From: Haloarcula halophila
GTDB taxonomy: Archaea; Halobacteriota; Halobacteria; Halobacteriales; Haloarculaceae
Length of the DNA stretch: 64,000 nt
Reading direction: 5' to 3'
Assembly: GCF_029278565.1 (NCBI RefSeq)
Contig: NZ_CP119559.1
Location: 1,550,001-1,614,000 of the forward strand
Below are positions 5,373-30,301 of this stretch, piece after piece (position 1 is the first letter of the stretch; each line of letters opens with the position of its first letter). The position numbers were made by a program, and so were the translations under genes. Below the pieces are notes generated by a model. The model had not been told where the DNA came from, made no database searches, and saw only the letters and a list, made by a program, of their open reading frames with translations.

Positions 5373-6812
5373 CTAGTCGTCGAGTGCCGCGTCCGGGCGA
5401 TACGAGCGGCTGACCACCCGCCAAGTCCCCGACCGGAACCGGTAGTAGGTGATCGCCGCCGGCACCGCTGTCTCGACGAGCAGCGAGGCGTACAGGGCGG
5501 TGACACCGATCGTGGGGACGACCACACCGACGTAAGCGACCGGGAGCGCGAAGACGTACATCCCCAGGAGCTGTGAGTACAGCGGCCAGCGGGTGTCGCC
5601 ACTGGCCCGGAGCGGTCCAGTTGCACCGCCGTCGATACCCCGGAAGACAACACTCGCGCACGCGACAGCGACGAAGACGGTCACCAGCGGCAACAGCGTC
5701 GTGTCCTCGACGAACAGGCGGCCGATCTGTCGGGAGAACGGTGCAAGCGCGACGGCGACAAGGAGATAGACACCGATCCCGAGCCGGAGGACCGTCCGGG
5801 CCCAGGCGGTCGCTTCCGGTTCGTCGTTCTCACCGAGGGCCTGCCCGACGAGACTGCTGGAGGCGAGACTCAGCCCCCAGTTGGGCGTATCGAGCAGGGC
5901 ACGGACCCGCAGGGCGACGACGTACGCCGAGACGACGTCGGGGCCGAACAACCCGACGATGAACAGCCGCGGGAACTGCGCGCCCGTCCGCGCGAGGTTC
6001 GTCCCCACGAGCGGGGCACCCATCTCGACGAGGTCACGGGCCAGCGAGCGATCCAGGAACGGCCGGGCGACCGGAATCCGTACCGGAAACGGGACCCCTG
6101 GCAGACCCCCGCGTGTCAATCCGACCACCAGCGCGGCAGTGACGAGAACGTTCGCGACGACGGTGCCGATGGCGGCACCGACGACGCCCATCTCTAGCCC
6201 GAAGATGAGGACGGCGTTGATGACGACGTTGACGACGGCCCCGCCCGCCCGGACGACCATCGCCGACCAGGCGTCGTCGGCACCCACCAGCGTCCTGCTC
6301 CCGACGAGGTTCAAGCCGGCGAACGGGACCCCCAGCGCGGCGACCTTGAGGTACGACTCGCCGAACGCGACCGCACGCGATCCCGACCCGACGAGGTCGA
6401 TCAGCGGGCCGGGGACGACCCAGTACAGCGCCGCGACCGGGACCGTGATCGCGACGACGACCGCGGCGCTCGTGGTCACCGACAGCCCGAGTTCCTCGCG
6501 GGCGTCGGCCCCGTAGCGCTGAGAGACCAGACCGATGGTCGCGCCGGCCACACCCCCGCCGAGCGCGAACGCCAGCCCCCAGAACGGCGTCGCGTAGCCG
6601 ACGCCCGCGATGGCGGTCGGCCCGATCGCCAGCCCGACCATCGCCACGTCGGCAGTCGATTTGGACATGCGCGCGAGGCCGGTGACGATCCTGGGCCAGG
6701 ATAGCTCGGTCGTCCGTGCGATACGATCACGTTCGACGAGGCCGGCCCGTGCGAGCAGGCTCCCGATAGCCAACAAGAGTACACGGACGGGATTATAGCG
6801 GGAGCCTGACAC
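5373..6812 (-). CDS. MATE-family multidrug/Na+ antiporter
   Basis: About 479 residues with twelve predicted membrane helices in two related halves, typical of MATE (NorM/DinF) exporters. Recognisable pieces are MSKSTADVAMVGLAIGPTAIAGVGYATP near the start of the first half, ASSSLVGQALGENDEPEA in the second half, and the GPLRASGDTRWPLYSQL loop. Such proteins export cationic compounds or metabolites using a sodium or proton gradient. A frame open further upstream to 7193 encodes low-complexity Gln/Arg sequence and overlaps the divergent gene at 6903, so I start at the GTG at 6812. That choice is uncertain by a few codons; another GTG is at 6833. Confidence 0.82.
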   Translation of the reverse strand: MSGSRYNPVRVLLLAIGSLLARAGLVERDRIARTTELSWPRIVTGLARMSKSTADVAMVGLAIGPTAIAGVGYATPFWGLAFALGGGVAGATIGLVSQRYGADAREELGLSVTTSAAVVVAITVPVAALYWVVPGPLIDLVGSGSRAVAFGESYLKVAALGVPFAGLNLVGSRTLVGADDAWSAMVVRAGGAVVNVVINAVLIFGLEMGVVGAAIGTVVANVLVTAALVVGLTRGGLPGVPFPVRIPVARPFLDRSLARDLVEMGAPLVGTNLARTGAQFPRLFIVGLFGPDVVSAYVVALRVRALLDTPNWGLSLASSSLVGQALGENDEPEATAWARTVLRLGIGVYLLVAVALAPFSRQIGRLFVEDTTLLPLVTVFVAVACASVVFRGIDGGATGPLRASGDTRWPLYSQLLGMYVFALPVAYVGVVVPTIGVTALYASLLVETAVPAAITYYRFRSGTWRVVSRSYRPDAALDD

Positions 6813-22726: not shown

Positions 22727-23139
22727 TGCGTCCGGTCACCCGCAACACGCTCGTCGGGATTCTGGTCATCGTCGTCCTCCTGTTGGCACTGGGGGCGTTG
22801 CCCTCGTATCTCAAGAGCGGCGACCCTTACTACGTCACGGCGACGCCGACAGACGGGACCTACAGCGTCGAGAACGGGACGGCGGTCAACGGGAGCGTCC
22901 TCACCGACCGCCGGTATCCCTACACGACGGCCGCACTCGGCAACGCGACGGCCGACACCGCGGGCAGTTCGGCGCCGTACTGGCGCGGCCCCGTCGGGTT
23001 GAAAGGCGCGTTCACCCACTCGCCGTTCGACGAACGCGACGCCCTCAGACAGCGGTACGACAACGCCACGGTCGGTGAGGGCGTCGTCGTCAGCCACAAC
23101 GGCACGTTTTACCGCGTCGCGGTCTCACAGTCGGTATGA
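22726..23139 (+). CDS. Membrane-anchored outer protein, function unknown
   Basis: A 137-residue protein. MRPVTRNTLVGILVIVVLLLALGALPSYL forms a single N-terminal membrane anchor. The rest (residues 31-137) is a Thr/Asn-rich domain with several NxT/S sites, such as ENGTAVNGS and GNATADT, as expected for a surface protein that could be glycosylated. No family was recognised. Start and stop overlap DUF5809 and the Nudix gene by one and four bases, so it is in the middle of an operon. Confidence 0.68.
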   Translation: MRPVTRNTLVGILVIVVLLLALGALPSYLKSGDPYYVTATPTDGTYSVENGTAVNGSVLTDRRYPYTTAALGNATADTAGSSAPYWRGPVGLKGAFTHSPFDERDALRQRYDNATVGEGVVVSHNGTFYRVAVSQSV

Positions 23140-23678
23140 CCGACACGAGCGAGTGGGACTGGCCGGTCGTCGAGTCCGCGGCCGAGTACGAGACCGGCTG
23201 GTACACCGGCGGCTACGACCGCGTGCGCCAGCCGGACGGGTCGGAGAAGGAGTACTACTGGGCCGAACTCCCCGACGCCGTCGTCGTCGTGGCGACCACG
23301 GGCGAGGAGCTCGTCATGGTCGAGCAGTTCCGGCCGACCATCCGCGAGCAGTGTCTCGAACTCCCCGCCGGGATCGTCGAGGACGGCGAATCCTACACGA
23401 CCGCCGGCGAGCGAGAACTGCGCGAGGAGACCGGTTTCGCGGCCGGGAGCCTCTCCCTGCTGGAGGAGTTCTGGTGTTCGACCGGCGTCCTCCGGCACCG
23501 ACGGGGGATCGTCTTCGCCGAGGGTCTGGAGCCGGTCGACCGCGACCTCGACGACAACGAGTTCCTCTCGGTGACGACCGTCCCGATTGCCGACGCGCTC
23601 GACGTCGCCCGTGCGGAACCCGCCAACGACGCGACTATCGAGGGGATCCTCCTCGCACAGGCCGAGGGGCTGTTGTAG
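23136..23678 (+). CDS. Nudix hydrolase, ADP-ribose pyrophosphatase-like
   Basis: A 180-residue protein with a complete Nudix box in GIVEDGESYTTAGERELREE followed by TGF (Gx5Ex7REUxEExGU). VVMVEQFRPTIREQCLELPAG before it is typical of ADP-ribose pyrophosphatases, which split ADP-ribose to AMP and ribose 5-phosphate. WCSTGVLRHRRGIVFAEGL is the downstream substrate loop. The ATG overlaps the preceding stop (ATGA). The enzyme may clear ADP-ribose or related dinucleotides. Confidence 0.87.
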   Translation: MTDTSEWDWPVVESAAEYETGWYTGGYDRVRQPDGSEKEYYWAELPDAVVVVATTGEELVMVEQFRPTIREQCLELPAGIVEDGESYTTAGERELREETGFAAGSLSLLEEFWCSTGVLRHRRGIVFAEGLEPVDRDLDDNEFLSVTTVPIADALDVARAEPANDATIEGILLAQAEGLL

Positions 23679-23716
23679 TCCAGTGAACGTTTAGGGCTCG
23701 CCCGCTAGCGATCGGT

Positions 23717-24067
23717 ATGGACGGCGAAATCGGCGTCGACGAACTGGAGTCGCTACTCGAAGACGACGGCGCGACCGTCGTCGATATCCGCCCGCCCCGG
23801 GCGTTCGACCAAGCCCACATTCCCGGGAGCGAGAACGTCCCGCTGAACCGTCTGGTCGACGACGTCGAGCGCTTCGAGGGCGTGGACCGGATCGTCACGA
23901 TCTGCCCTCACGGGAAATCCAGCGTCCAAGCGGCCCGGCTGATCGCCTCCTACGAGGGCTTCGACGGGACAGTCGAGAGTTTCGCGCCGGGACTGGGCGG
24001 CTGGGACGGGCCACTCGACGGCGACATCTCCGAACAGTCCGACGAAGGGCCGGCTGCGCCGTTCTGA
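23717..24067 (+). CDS. Rhodanese-like single-domain protein
   Basis: A 116-residue rhodanese domain: TVVDIRPPRAFDQAHIPGSENVPLNRL at the N-terminal half, and the active loop ICPHGKSSVQAARLIASY with Cys near residue 62. The final GLGGWDGPL is typical. Such proteins carry sulphane sulphur as a Cys persulphide and donate it to thiolation reactions. The active loop is CPHGKSS where classical rhodaneses have CRxGxR, which fits a sulphur carrier. It lies 38 bases after the Nudix gene. Confidence 0.87.
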   Translation: MDGEIGVDELESLLEDDGATVVDIRPPRAFDQAHIPGSENVPLNRLVDDVERFEGVDRIVTICPHGKSSVQAARLIASYEGFDGTVESFAPGLGGWDGPLDGDISEQSDEGPAAPF

Positions 24068-24124
24068 TCCTCACTCCCCGCTCGGGAAAGACGGTGGCTC
24101 GGGTAAAACTATCGTCACAAGGGG

Positions 24125-24157
24125 CTCAGCGGGGGTAACTGCTCGTCATCGCCACCG
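24125..24157. repeat. 33-base direct repeat, left copy
   Basis: This copy is identical over 33 bases to 25001-25033. It begins CTCAGCGGGG and ends CATCGCCACCG. The two copies are in the same orientation, 876 bases apart, and bracket the small acidic ORF and the Doc toxin gene. Beyond the identical part the flank TAGACT recurs at the same distance (24166 and 25042), so the similarity is wider than 33 bases. Confidence 0.85.
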
Positions 24158-24211
24158 TCGGAAAGTAGACTACCGTGTCAAAAAAGTCCACCTATCGACT
24201 CGCGCGGCCGG

Positions 24212-24349
24212 TCACTCGTATGCGAGTTCTTCGTATATCTCCGCGTGCTCGTCGAGATCCTGTTTTCCGAGGAACCGGATCAGGTAGCGTCTGGCCTCCT
24301 CGGGCGACAGGTCGTCCGGCAGGTCGGGTGCGTCGCTTTCAGCGGCCAT
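24212..24349 (-). CDS. Small acidic protein, candidate partner of the Doc toxin
   Basis: A 45-residue ORF, MAAESDAPDLPDDLSPEEAR, RRYLIRF and an acidic helix ending EIYEELAYE. It starts two bases after the Doc stop on the same strand, so the two are co-transcribed. It is mainly one or two amphipathic acidic helices. In known doc systems the antitoxin is usually encoded before the toxin; here the only companion ORF lies after it. No DNA-binding head is visible. Assignment as antitoxin is inference from position, size and charge. Confidence 0.5.
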   Translation of the reverse strand: MAAESDAPDLPDDLSPEEARRYLIRFLGKQDLDEHAEIYEELAYE

Positions 24350-24351
24350 TC

Positions 24352-24906
24352 TTACTCCTCACTACGCGAGTCCGAGTGATAATCGTTCGGTTCGCCGTGA
24401 CGGTTGCTCTCGGACGGGTCAGGTTCGACGTCGCCCGGGATTCGTTCAGCGTCCATGATTCGTGACAACCAGAGCTCGACAGTCGCTTTGTATTCCGGTT
24501 CGAGCGGTGCAGTGTGTTCGCAGAGGTAAGAAAGAATGACTCCTTCCTCGACGGCCGTCTCATCCGTCGCCAACGCTTTCAGAATCTCCTTGATCTGACT
24601 GTCATACGCGAACTCTAGGCCGTTCAACGCGTAGAAGACGCGTATCGACATGAGTGCCGTTCGCTTGTTCCCGTCGACAAACGGATGATTGACCACGATG
24701 AGACGGAGCAGCTGGTACGCTTTCTCGTGGAGGGACCCGGGCACGTGACCAAAGTGTCCCTCACGGATGTGCTCGACTGTGTATTCGATGTCGCCTGTCG
24801 AGGCGACGCCAGCCTCCGTATCTTCGTTCGACTCGACAACCAGCTCGTGAATCGAGAGGATGTCCTCTGTAGTGAGGTAGTTGAGCGAGTCTGGTCCCGC
24901 TGCCAT
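24352..24906 (-). CDS. doc: Fic/Doc-family toxin-like protein
   Basis: About 184 residues. The Fic active motif HPFVDGNKRTA is intact (HxFxxGNxR), around residue 84. YLTTEDILSIHELVVES at the start and IREGHFGHVPGSLHEKAYQLLRLIVVNHP are typical of Doc, which in phage P1 phosphorylates EF-Tu; Fic relatives AMP-ylate. The presence of K after N (GNKRT) is the Doc-type variant. A C-terminal tail after residue 155 is Ser/Asp/Glu rich. GTG 24909 is directly before the ATG. The gene sits between two direct repeats. Confidence 0.85.
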   Translation of the reverse strand: MAAGPDSLNYLTTEDILSIHELVVESNEDTEAGVASTGDIEYTVEHIREGHFGHVPGSLHEKAYQLLRLIVVNHPFVDGNKRTALMSIRVFYALNGLEFAYDSQIKEILKALATDETAVEEGVILSYLCEHTAPLEPEYKATVELWLSRIMDAERIPGDVEPDPSESNRHGEPNDYHSDSRSEE

Positions 24907-25205
24907 CACTCTTGACTACTGTCGGTAAACGTATGCAAGTACTGATTTCGGAGATTGGATTTGTGTCTACCTCGGGAGGATCTATTAATAGAAAATGAGT
25001 CTCAGCGGGGGTAACTGCTCGTCATCGCCACCGAGAGCGGATAGACTCCCCCGCGTGAAAAACTCGTTTGTTGACGGCCGTGTGGAACTCAGGTTCTCGT
25101 CCTGAGCAGTAGTCTGACGACAGCCAATTGATATCGACGCAGTCTATGTATACCTCGTTGCATGCACTCGGACAAGCGCGGGCCGGTTCCCTGGGCAACA
25201 GCCCC
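24907..25205. other. Gap holding the right repeat copy; no gene seen
   Basis: This stretch contains the promoter side of the Doc gene (GTAAACGTAT near 24926), an AT-rich TCTATTAATAGA palindrome near 24981-24992, and the second repeat copy at 25001. It then leads to the end of the channel fusion gene. No coding sequence beyond the short frame inside the repeat is convincing. Confidence 0.5.
25001..25033. repeat. 33-base direct repeat, right copy
   Basis: This is the second perfect copy of the sequence at 24125-24157. On the minus strand both copies read the same short frame ending VAMTSSYPR and a stop (TGA), and the residues before this (VVYFPT in the left copy, GVYPLS in the right) are similar but not identical. 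Confidence 0.85.
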
Positions 25206-29000: not shown

Positions 29001-29104
29001 AATATAGGTACGAACTGACTGGTACTCCCGGCTCTGTATCGGGACAAACCACCGTATAGAGGTATTATAATCCCTTTTACCCCGATACGGGCTTGGATAG
29101 CCTG

Positions 29105-30301
29105 ATGTCAGACGACAAAGCGTCCGGCACTGGCGTATCACGGCGAAAGTTCCTCCTCACTTCAGGCGCCATCGGGGCGGCAGGGCTGGCTGGGTGTTCC
29201 GGTGGCGATGGTGGCAGTGACGGTGGAAGCGGGAGCGACGGCGGGAGCGGCAGTGACGGTGGAAGCGGGAGCGATGGTGGAAGCGGTAGCGACGGTGGCG
29301 ACGGGGGAATGAACACGGACCTGCTCACAGCCGAGGGGTCCTCGACAGTGTACCCCATCTCGAACAAGGGTGCCTCCTACTGGAACGCCAACGCGCCCCC
29401 GAGTGACGGCGAGTACTGGGGGTCGAACGACGAGGGCTCCGTTCCCGGCTGGAGCGAGATCGAGACGGACGAATACCTCGCCGACTACTTCGCGGGACTG
29501 TACGGCTTCGAACAGACGGGCGAGCGCTCGAACCCGCCGTTCAACGCGACAGTCAGTCTGAGCCACTCCGGGACGGGCTGTAAGGCGGTCCGGGACGGAT
29601 TGGTCGACATCGGCAACTCCTCGGGTCCGATCACGGCCGAGCTCGGCATCAGCGACTCCGAAGCCCAGGAGCAGTTCGTCGACCACGTCGTGGGCCGCGA
29701 CGGCCAGCCGGTCGTCGTGAGCAGCGACATCTACGACGCCGGCGTCACGCAACTCACCGGCGAGCAGATCCGCCAGATCTACCAGGACGAGATCACCAAC
29801 TGGTCCGAGGTCGGCGGCCCGGACCAGGAGATATTCTGTATCGGCCGCGCGGAAGGGTCGGGCACCGACACGTCGTTCCGACTCAACATGCTCGGTAGCG
29901 CCGACGCATCGATGGAAGGCGTCGACTCCCGGTTCGGCCAGAACCAGCAGGTCGCCGAGGCCGTCGCCAACAACGACGGCGCCATCGCGTACATGGCACT
30001 GGCGTTCACCAGCGAGTCGGTCCAACCGATCGGCATCGAGTTCGAAGGGACGCTGTACGAGCCGAACAAGGACGCCGAGAACACCATCTTCGACAGCGCG
30101 TACCCGCTGAACCGGGACCTGCACATGTACACGAAGATCACGGAAGACACCCCCAGCGGGACGGATCTGCGCGAGGGGGCCTTCCTGAACATGTTCCTGA
30201 CACAGTTCGGACAGATCGTCTTCGTCGAGCAGAACAACTACATCCCGCTCCCGACCAGCGACATCGAGTCCGAGGCCGAAAAGCTGCCGGACCAGGCCTG
30301 A
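29105..30301 (+). CDS. pstS: Phosphate ABC transporter substrate-binding lipoprotein
   Basis: A 398-residue protein with Tat signal SRRKFLLTSGAIGAAG, lipobox LAGC, and a long Gly-Ser-Asp linker of repeated GGSGSD-type units (about residues 32-62) that tethers the binding domain. Phosphate-binding loops are SSTVYPIS, SHSGTGCKAV and EGSGTDTSFR. TCxYDAGVTQLTGEQIRQIYQ-like text (IYDAGVTQLTGEQIRQIYQD) is characteristic. It delivers phosphate to PstC/PstA. It is followed by pstC, pstA, pstB, phoU and an AbrB-PhoU gene in one direction. Confidence 0.94.
   Translation: MSDDKASGTGVSRRKFLLTSGAIGAAGLAGCSGGDGGSDGGSGSDGGSGSDGGSGSDGGSGSDGGDGGMNTDLLTAEGSSTVYPISNKGASYWNANAPPSDGEYWGSNDEGSVPGWSEIETDEYLADYFAGLYGFEQTGERSNPPFNATVSLSHSGTGCKAVRDGLVDIGNSSGPITAELGISDSEAQEQFVDHVVGRDGQPVVVSSDIYDAGVTQLTGEQIRQIYQDEITNWSEVGGPDQEIFCIGRAEGSGTDTSFRLNMLGSADASMEGVDSRFGQNQQVAEAVANNDGAIAYMALAFTSESVQPIGIEFEGTLYEPNKDAENTIFDSAYPLNRDLHMYTKITEDTPSGTDLREGAFLNMFLTQFGQIVFVEQNNYIPLPTSDIESEAEKLPDQA

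Follow-up and report, generated by a model that had tools for sequence, protein, structure and literature searches.

Integrative elements at tRNA or tmRNA genes, such as the pTN3-like elements that recombine with the 5′ half of a tRNA gene, integrate conservatively. A part carried by the element restores the small RNA gene, a displaced fragment is left at the far end, and the restored 5′ part of pTN3-like targets comes with an element-borne promoter (PMC8371274). As targets, the review of archaeal tyrosine recombinases names tRNA genes, where pTN3-like elements use the 5′ half, besides protein genes and intergenic sites; the words sRNA and snoRNA are absent from it (PMC8371274). Integrons and CALINs, the archaeal integrons among them, stack small recombinase-less cassettes rich in toxin–antitoxin genes at one site; the archaeal integron paper makes no mention of Halobacteria (PMC9668308). 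A third comparable system, the pdif modules of Acinetobacter plasmids, places toxin–antitoxin and other genes between recombination sites that the host recombinase Xer serves in trans. In the literature available to us, with subscription journals mostly beyond reach, we found neither C/D-box sRNA genes, the sR41-type included, as integration sites nor haloarchaeal cassette arrays. The locus of Haloarcula halophila described here, where toxin–antitoxin cassettes appear to use such an sRNA gene, seems to represent a site and a manner of gene capture that have not been described before.

The window that we analysed is a stretch of 64,000 nucleotides (contig NZ_CP119559.1, positions 1,550,001 to 1,614,000). 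It contains two 33-base sequences in the same orientation, identical at 33 of 33 positions, whose start-to-start spacing of 876 leaves an insert of 843 bp. Their identity ends abruptly, with 0 further bases on the left and at once on the right too. The insert has a G+C content of 55% compared with 66% for the window. Within the 4.04-Mb genome these two are the only copies at up to three mismatches, which rules out a dispersed repeat, and shuffled sequences gave an expectation of 0.00 copies for a 27-base part of the 33-mer. Elsewhere in this genome (C2:444426) there is a decayed site resembling the 5′ half, without a toxin cassette. The only other repeated 20-mers of the window (GGCAGTGACGGTGGAAGCGG and overlaps) are of the GSGSDGG type, a run of which follows the lipobox of a PstS-like protein (29093-30301). 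The features of the locus are as follows.

23136..24067, plus strand: left-flank nudix and rhodanese genes beside the sRNA gene, syntenic in occupied and empty relatives
24093..24156, minus strand: intact sR41-like C/D-box sRNA gene, 64 nt, the attachment site, restored after insertion
24125..24157, minus strand: left 33-mer copy, corresponding to the 5′ half of the intact sRNA gene and interpreted as cassette-borne
24178..24185, minus strand: promoter-like A/T element reading TCAAAAAA and, on the strand of the sRNA, TTTTTTGA, close to the conserved spacing of cassettes and native loci, a putative cassette-borne sRNA promoter
24212..24349, minus strand: acidic ORF of 45 aa directly downstream of doc, candidate antitoxin or partner of doc
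24352..24909, minus strand: Doc/Fic toxin gene, 185 aa, with HPFVDGNKRT motif (PF02661, 6e-10; TIGR01550 DOC_P1, 2.5e-16)
24979..25000, plus strand: right-end motif of the cassette, GATCTATTAATAGAAAATGAGT, which includes the 12-base palindrome TCTATTAATAGA; unrelated cassettes end in the same motif
25001..25033, minus strand: right 33-mer copy, a displaced sRNA 5′ half without 3′ half, attR-like
25056..25062, minus strand: promoter-like TGAAAAA belonging to the displaced 5′ half and conserved in spacing, probably an orphaned sRNA promoter

The first-pass annotation had described perfect repeats around a Doc-type toxin gene and a 45-residue ORF, and this description is accurate in every detail. 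With both the Doc/Fic domain and the motif, the larger protein belongs to the Doc family. A family profile search matched the 45-aa ORF, a candidate for the antitoxin of the operon, to no family; its best stretch is 88% identical in an H. mukohataei plasmid. On the H. mukohataei plasmid of G059 (L065, the same as L033), a Doc cassette that is 70-73% like that of the window occupies a degenerate sRNA-like site, with the palindrome kept and the right repeat absent, possibly a secondary-site insertion. In the window, the displaced sRNA promoter and 5′ half (25001-25062) are directed at the doc operon, so that transcription of the toxin genes could start from there.

The left 33-mer extends leftwards (24093-24124) into a conserved sRNA gene, so that the left side holds the whole gene whereas the right side holds half only. 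A block of ~65 bases across and left of the left repeat was matched by DNA search in almost all of the 32 genomes of the genus. The minus-strand sequence of the block is GGTGGCGATGACGAGCAGTTACCCCCGCTGAGCCCCTTGTGACGATAGTTTTACCCGAGCCACC, with a C-like box, the guide, the D′ box CTGA, a C′-like box TGTGACGA (TGATGA in some relatives) and a D box CCGA or CTGA. The order in the sRNA gene is C box, 11-nt D′ guide AGTTACCCCCG, D′ box CTGA, C′ box and D box CCGA, and its terminal stem is GGTGGC/GCCACC. When 27 distinct sRNA genes were aligned, the terminal stem was paired in 99.4% of cells, with compensatory changes from U-A to C-G in six sequences and from C-G to U-A in one. The same alignment has box-like blocks for C, D′, C′ and D, which are degenerate in Halobacteria, as described for halobacterial C/D boxes (PMC2584109). 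The Rfam model sR1 (C/D snoRNA) matched the same strand in relatives at 20-22 bits, below its gathering score of 45. The sequence preceding D′, AGUUACCCCCG, is complementary at 11 of 11 positions to nucleotides 1943-1953 of the organism's own 23S rRNA, clearly its best-matching site, and the N+5 rule (position 5 upstream of D′) points to G1947 in GGCGGGGGUAACUAUGACCC, a helix-69 context. Aligned by eye to helix 69 of E. coli, G1947 would correspond to E. coli position 1909 and to Gm1950 of Haloarcula marismortui. For this Gm1950 an sR41-like C/D sRNA was predicted in 2008 (PMC2584109), and our sRNA conforms to that prediction in its guide, its target position and the order of its boxes. We therefore predict that 24093..24156 encodes the C/D-box guide sRNA for Gm1950 in helix 69. 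Minimum free energy folding of the sRNA alone was not significant (z -0.95), which is unsurprising because the evidence for a C/D RNA consists of the boxes, the guide and the covariation of the stem. Read as a guide-RNA gene, the block is intact on the left, where the 33-mer covers its 5′ half and one base of flank; the right 33-mer is a 5′ half on its own. A paralogous C/D sRNA with a GGCGGC stem and the guide GTTACCCC occurs on large plasmids of Halorussus, Natronosalvus, Halalkalicoccus and Natronorubrum (L034-L037, near locus position 6000), close to an aCPSF1 ribonuclease gene in three of the four and in two copies on one of them. That plasmids carry a guide for ribosome modification was unexpected.

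A unit that inserted site-specifically between att-like repeats, as the first-pass annotation had suggested, should have empty counterparts with one repeat copy, and such sites do exist. Three related pairs contrast an occupied locus with an empty one in which the cassette is absent, a single sRNA copy stands and the flanks are about 90-96% identical. Between occupied G001 and empty G006, 2.4 kb of left flank are 92.8% identical and 2.5 kb of right flank 95.2%; the left and right values are about 90-94% (in pieces) and 95% for G005/G017, and 93.7% and 89.6% for G024/G029. Thus the single-copy empty site, the gene restored on one side and the fragment on the other are all found, as in elements that restore RNA genes, and toxin-free relatives do hold one copy of the repeat, namely as part of the sRNA gene. 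In many loci, whether occupied or empty, the genes rimI, nudix and rhodanese are syntenic to the left of the sRNA. We found no closely matching empty locus for the cassette of the window among the relatives, because its right flank, a formate/nitrite transporter-Usp gene, is not common to them. The empty form of this locus is thus likely by analogy with the sister cassettes, whose sequences provide the empty-site argument.

The search for further cassettes between repeat copies was positive in other genomes. Reading the loci by hand, we counted occupied sites in at least 10 of the 32 genomes of the genus, in at least 16 of the 146 genomes of the family Haloarculaceae and in one genome of another family (G250). 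In relatives, one to three units, often two or three, are stacked at the sRNA gene, always on its 5′ side. Each unit begins with the sRNA 5′ half and finishes with the palindromic end ATCTATTAATAGAAAnnGGGT directly before the next 5′ half. Among 25 right ends from units of unrelated content, positions -21 to -7 mostly keep one base in 19-24. The right-end motif is present in 9 of 391 genomes of the class (a reversed control gave 0 matches), and a scan of genome contigs for the end motif added only six records, all from Haloarculaceae-type hosts. The core CTCAGCGGGGGTAAC occurs almost only at these sRNA sites. A viral origin is not supported: the element pattern and the palindrome pattern had 0 hits in IMG/VR, and phage records yielded chance matches only. 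A plasmid of H. pelagica shows, at L061:16220-16330, the end motif followed by a second palindrome ATCTATTAATAGAT, the sRNA 3′ half and then CTCTGCGGG, an arrangement that resembles a broken or head-on junction. The H. pelagica plasmid has two end-like motifs 13.6 kb apart, with metabolic genes and no annotated integrase between them.

On this basis we propose, with a probability of roughly 80%, that the 33-mers are the ends of an integrated toxin–antitoxin cassette whose attachment site is a C/D-box sRNA gene, that insertion rebuilds this gene and can be repeated in stacks, and that the enzyme is supplied in trans. The cassette would exist as a circle composed of the end palindrome, the sRNA 5′ half, an sRNA promoter and the toxin and antitoxin genes. 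This circle would recombine with the intact sRNA gene, with the crossover inside the common core CTCAGCGGGGGTAAC, and so join the host's sRNA 3′ half to the 5′ half and promoter of the cassette, forming an intact gene, which would presumably be expressed. The old 5′ half with its promoter would be displaced to the far side, behind the palindrome. Since the rebuilt gene would again be a full target, further cassettes could insert at the same place and stack, and the units may still be mobile. Three observations bear on the position of the exchange. In G001 the guide-adjacent triplet reads ATT next to the cassette and ATC at the far end, and empty relatives likewise have ATC; G005 has a base difference (CTGAG/CTCAG) left of the exchange; and arrays at degenerate secondary sites (G022 and the G014 plasmid) have the core alone in common, about 11-15 bp. 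These few informative sites place the exchange probably inside CTCAGCGGGGGTAAC, that is, in the D′ box and guide.

Homologous recombination of the Campbell type, in which plasmids or circles carrying a piece of the sRNA gene integrate through ordinary homology without a site-specific enzyme, would account for the shared stretch of up to 33 bp and for the lack of a recombinase nearby, and sRNA paralogs are indeed present on large plasmids. Haloarchaea recombine readily, which also speaks for it. Such a process would not, however, give unrelated cassettes a common non-homologous palindrome end, kept at most positions in 19-24 of the 25 right ends, nor fix the cassette boundary at CTCAG, and the secondary sites share only the core. 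We therefore consider it unlikely.

Most units are compact (0.75-1.9 kb), the same compact cassette types are found again in different species, and nearly all of the 22 units read carry toxin–antitoxin or Fic genes. Besides Doc with the 45-aa ORF in the window, there are SoFic-like Fic proteins in seven units; an MNT nucleotidyltransferase in another seven, usually with a HEPN-like partner, once beside VapB and once with transposases; TumE with an HVO_A0114-type regulator in three; HicA together with a DUF7387 partner; and a MazE-type antitoxin accompanied by a PIN-like protein. The remaining units carry a PIN-like protein and a UvrD-type helicase of 1120 aa. The HEPN and PIN calls were made by sequence inspection, with Pfam support below threshold or none. 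The few insertions other than simple cassettes include a 13.8-kb one in G014 and one with transposases in G005; a further insertion measures 5.45 kb. The one in G014 (L043), which separates the intact sRNA from the first displaced half, holds sugar-catabolism genes and represents a large cassette or DNA that was inserted later. Decay of larger integrative elements, i.e. plasmids or proviruses with their own integrase in the sRNA gene of which the toxin genes are the remains, would fit the 13.8-kb and 5.45-kb insertions and the rule that archaeal elements residing at RNA genes mostly have an integrase (PMC8371274). Yet almost every unit is compact and has ends that can be recognised, the same types recur across species, no unit in the ~80 loci read has a detectable integrase remnant, and no larger integrase-bearing element was seen at the sRNA gene, which makes this origin quite unlikely. 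Right-end copies are decayed in G088, G091 and G031, and therefore part of the arrays must be old and vertically inherited; where sister species share a cassette type, common descent may account for it instead of several transfers.

Right of the 5′ half, native and cassette-borne copies have the same promoter-like pattern, with GTA at +9, TGAAAA at +24 and CGT at +33. Therefore the cassette brings a putative sRNA promoter along with the 5′ half, and since each cassette supplies both, the sRNA gene is rebuilt. This pattern also bears on transposition by a casposon/Cas1-like or other enzyme, whereby the 33-bp copies would be target-site duplications like the repeats added in CRISPR adaptation. 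New units do always appear to the same side of the intact sRNA, each adding one repeat copy, but the promoter motif beyond the repeat is found on the cassette side as well, the two copies differ in the guide-adjacent triplet (in G001, for example, ATT next to the cassette and the native ATC at the far end), and the repeat length would have to vary from 33 to about 11 bp; transposition is thus very unlikely. That the repeat is a promoter or operator duplicated around a toxin operon is hardly credible: the displaced sRNA promoter does point into the doc operon and could drive doc, but the repeat is a conserved RNA gene with compensatory changes, stands alone in toxin-free genomes and also lies beside unrelated genes on either strand, and the empty sites contradict such a role.

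Site-specific integration by an enzyme in trans raises the question of the recombinase. The first-pass annotation had found none inside the unit, and this extends to the other sites: using our own HMM, we detected no tyrosine recombinase in the ~80 loci read, the nearest ones being far away. With no recombinase detected at any site, a trans-acting one would have to serve the cassettes, most likely a tyrosine recombinase. All 12 cassette-bearing genomes tested encode tyrosine recombinases, and from 10 of the 12 we recovered a core protein of ~345 aa, 69-96% identical, as a candidate only for the enzyme of the sRNA site. A search for a link between recombinase and site (PF00589 in 12 genomes, att motifs near 30 integrase loci) found none. 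Among other enzyme classes, serine recombinases (PF00239) are absent from 5 of 13 cassette-bearing genomes and Y1 transposases (PF01797) from 3 of 13, so neither is universal.

In comparison with the tRNA/tmRNA-gene elements, the haloarchaeal units target a C/D-box guide sRNA gene, are mostly 0.75-1.9 kb in size, lack the integrase and stack although unrelated. Unlike integrons, which have intI beside attI, the arrays have no IntI alongside, and their cassette end, read directly, consists of the 12-base palindrome TCTATTAATAGA and an RNA-gene half and looks unlike attC. The difference from pdif modules is that the site is an RNA gene in direct orientation; the use of Xer here would be a guess. 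The locus can therefore be described as RNA-gene-restoring integration with integron-like stacking, in which the sRNA function and the recombinase are the main steps that we infer. A more far-reaching picture, which we offer tentatively and at somewhat less than even odds, is an integron-like capture platform of haloarchaea at the helix-69 guide sRNA, where a resident core tyrosine recombinase would insert palindrome-ended, recombinase-less toxin–antitoxin cassettes in trans into the D′ guide, each providing a new promoter for the sRNA.

The mobile toxin unit postulated by the first-pass annotation is thus supported and extended: the repeat is half of an sRNA gene, insertion rebuilds this gene, and the window is one case of stackable toxin–antitoxin cassettes. 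This adds a C/D-box guide sRNA gene to the RNA-gene targets of integration and provides an archaeal cassette-stacking locus without a local recombinase, with an end motif and att core that are searchable and testable in culturable Haloarcula strains. For these organisms it would mean a route for the spread of toxin–antitoxin genes that tie themselves to an RNA of ribosome maturation, and a ribosome-modification guide whose promoter is repeatedly swapped by mobile DNA.
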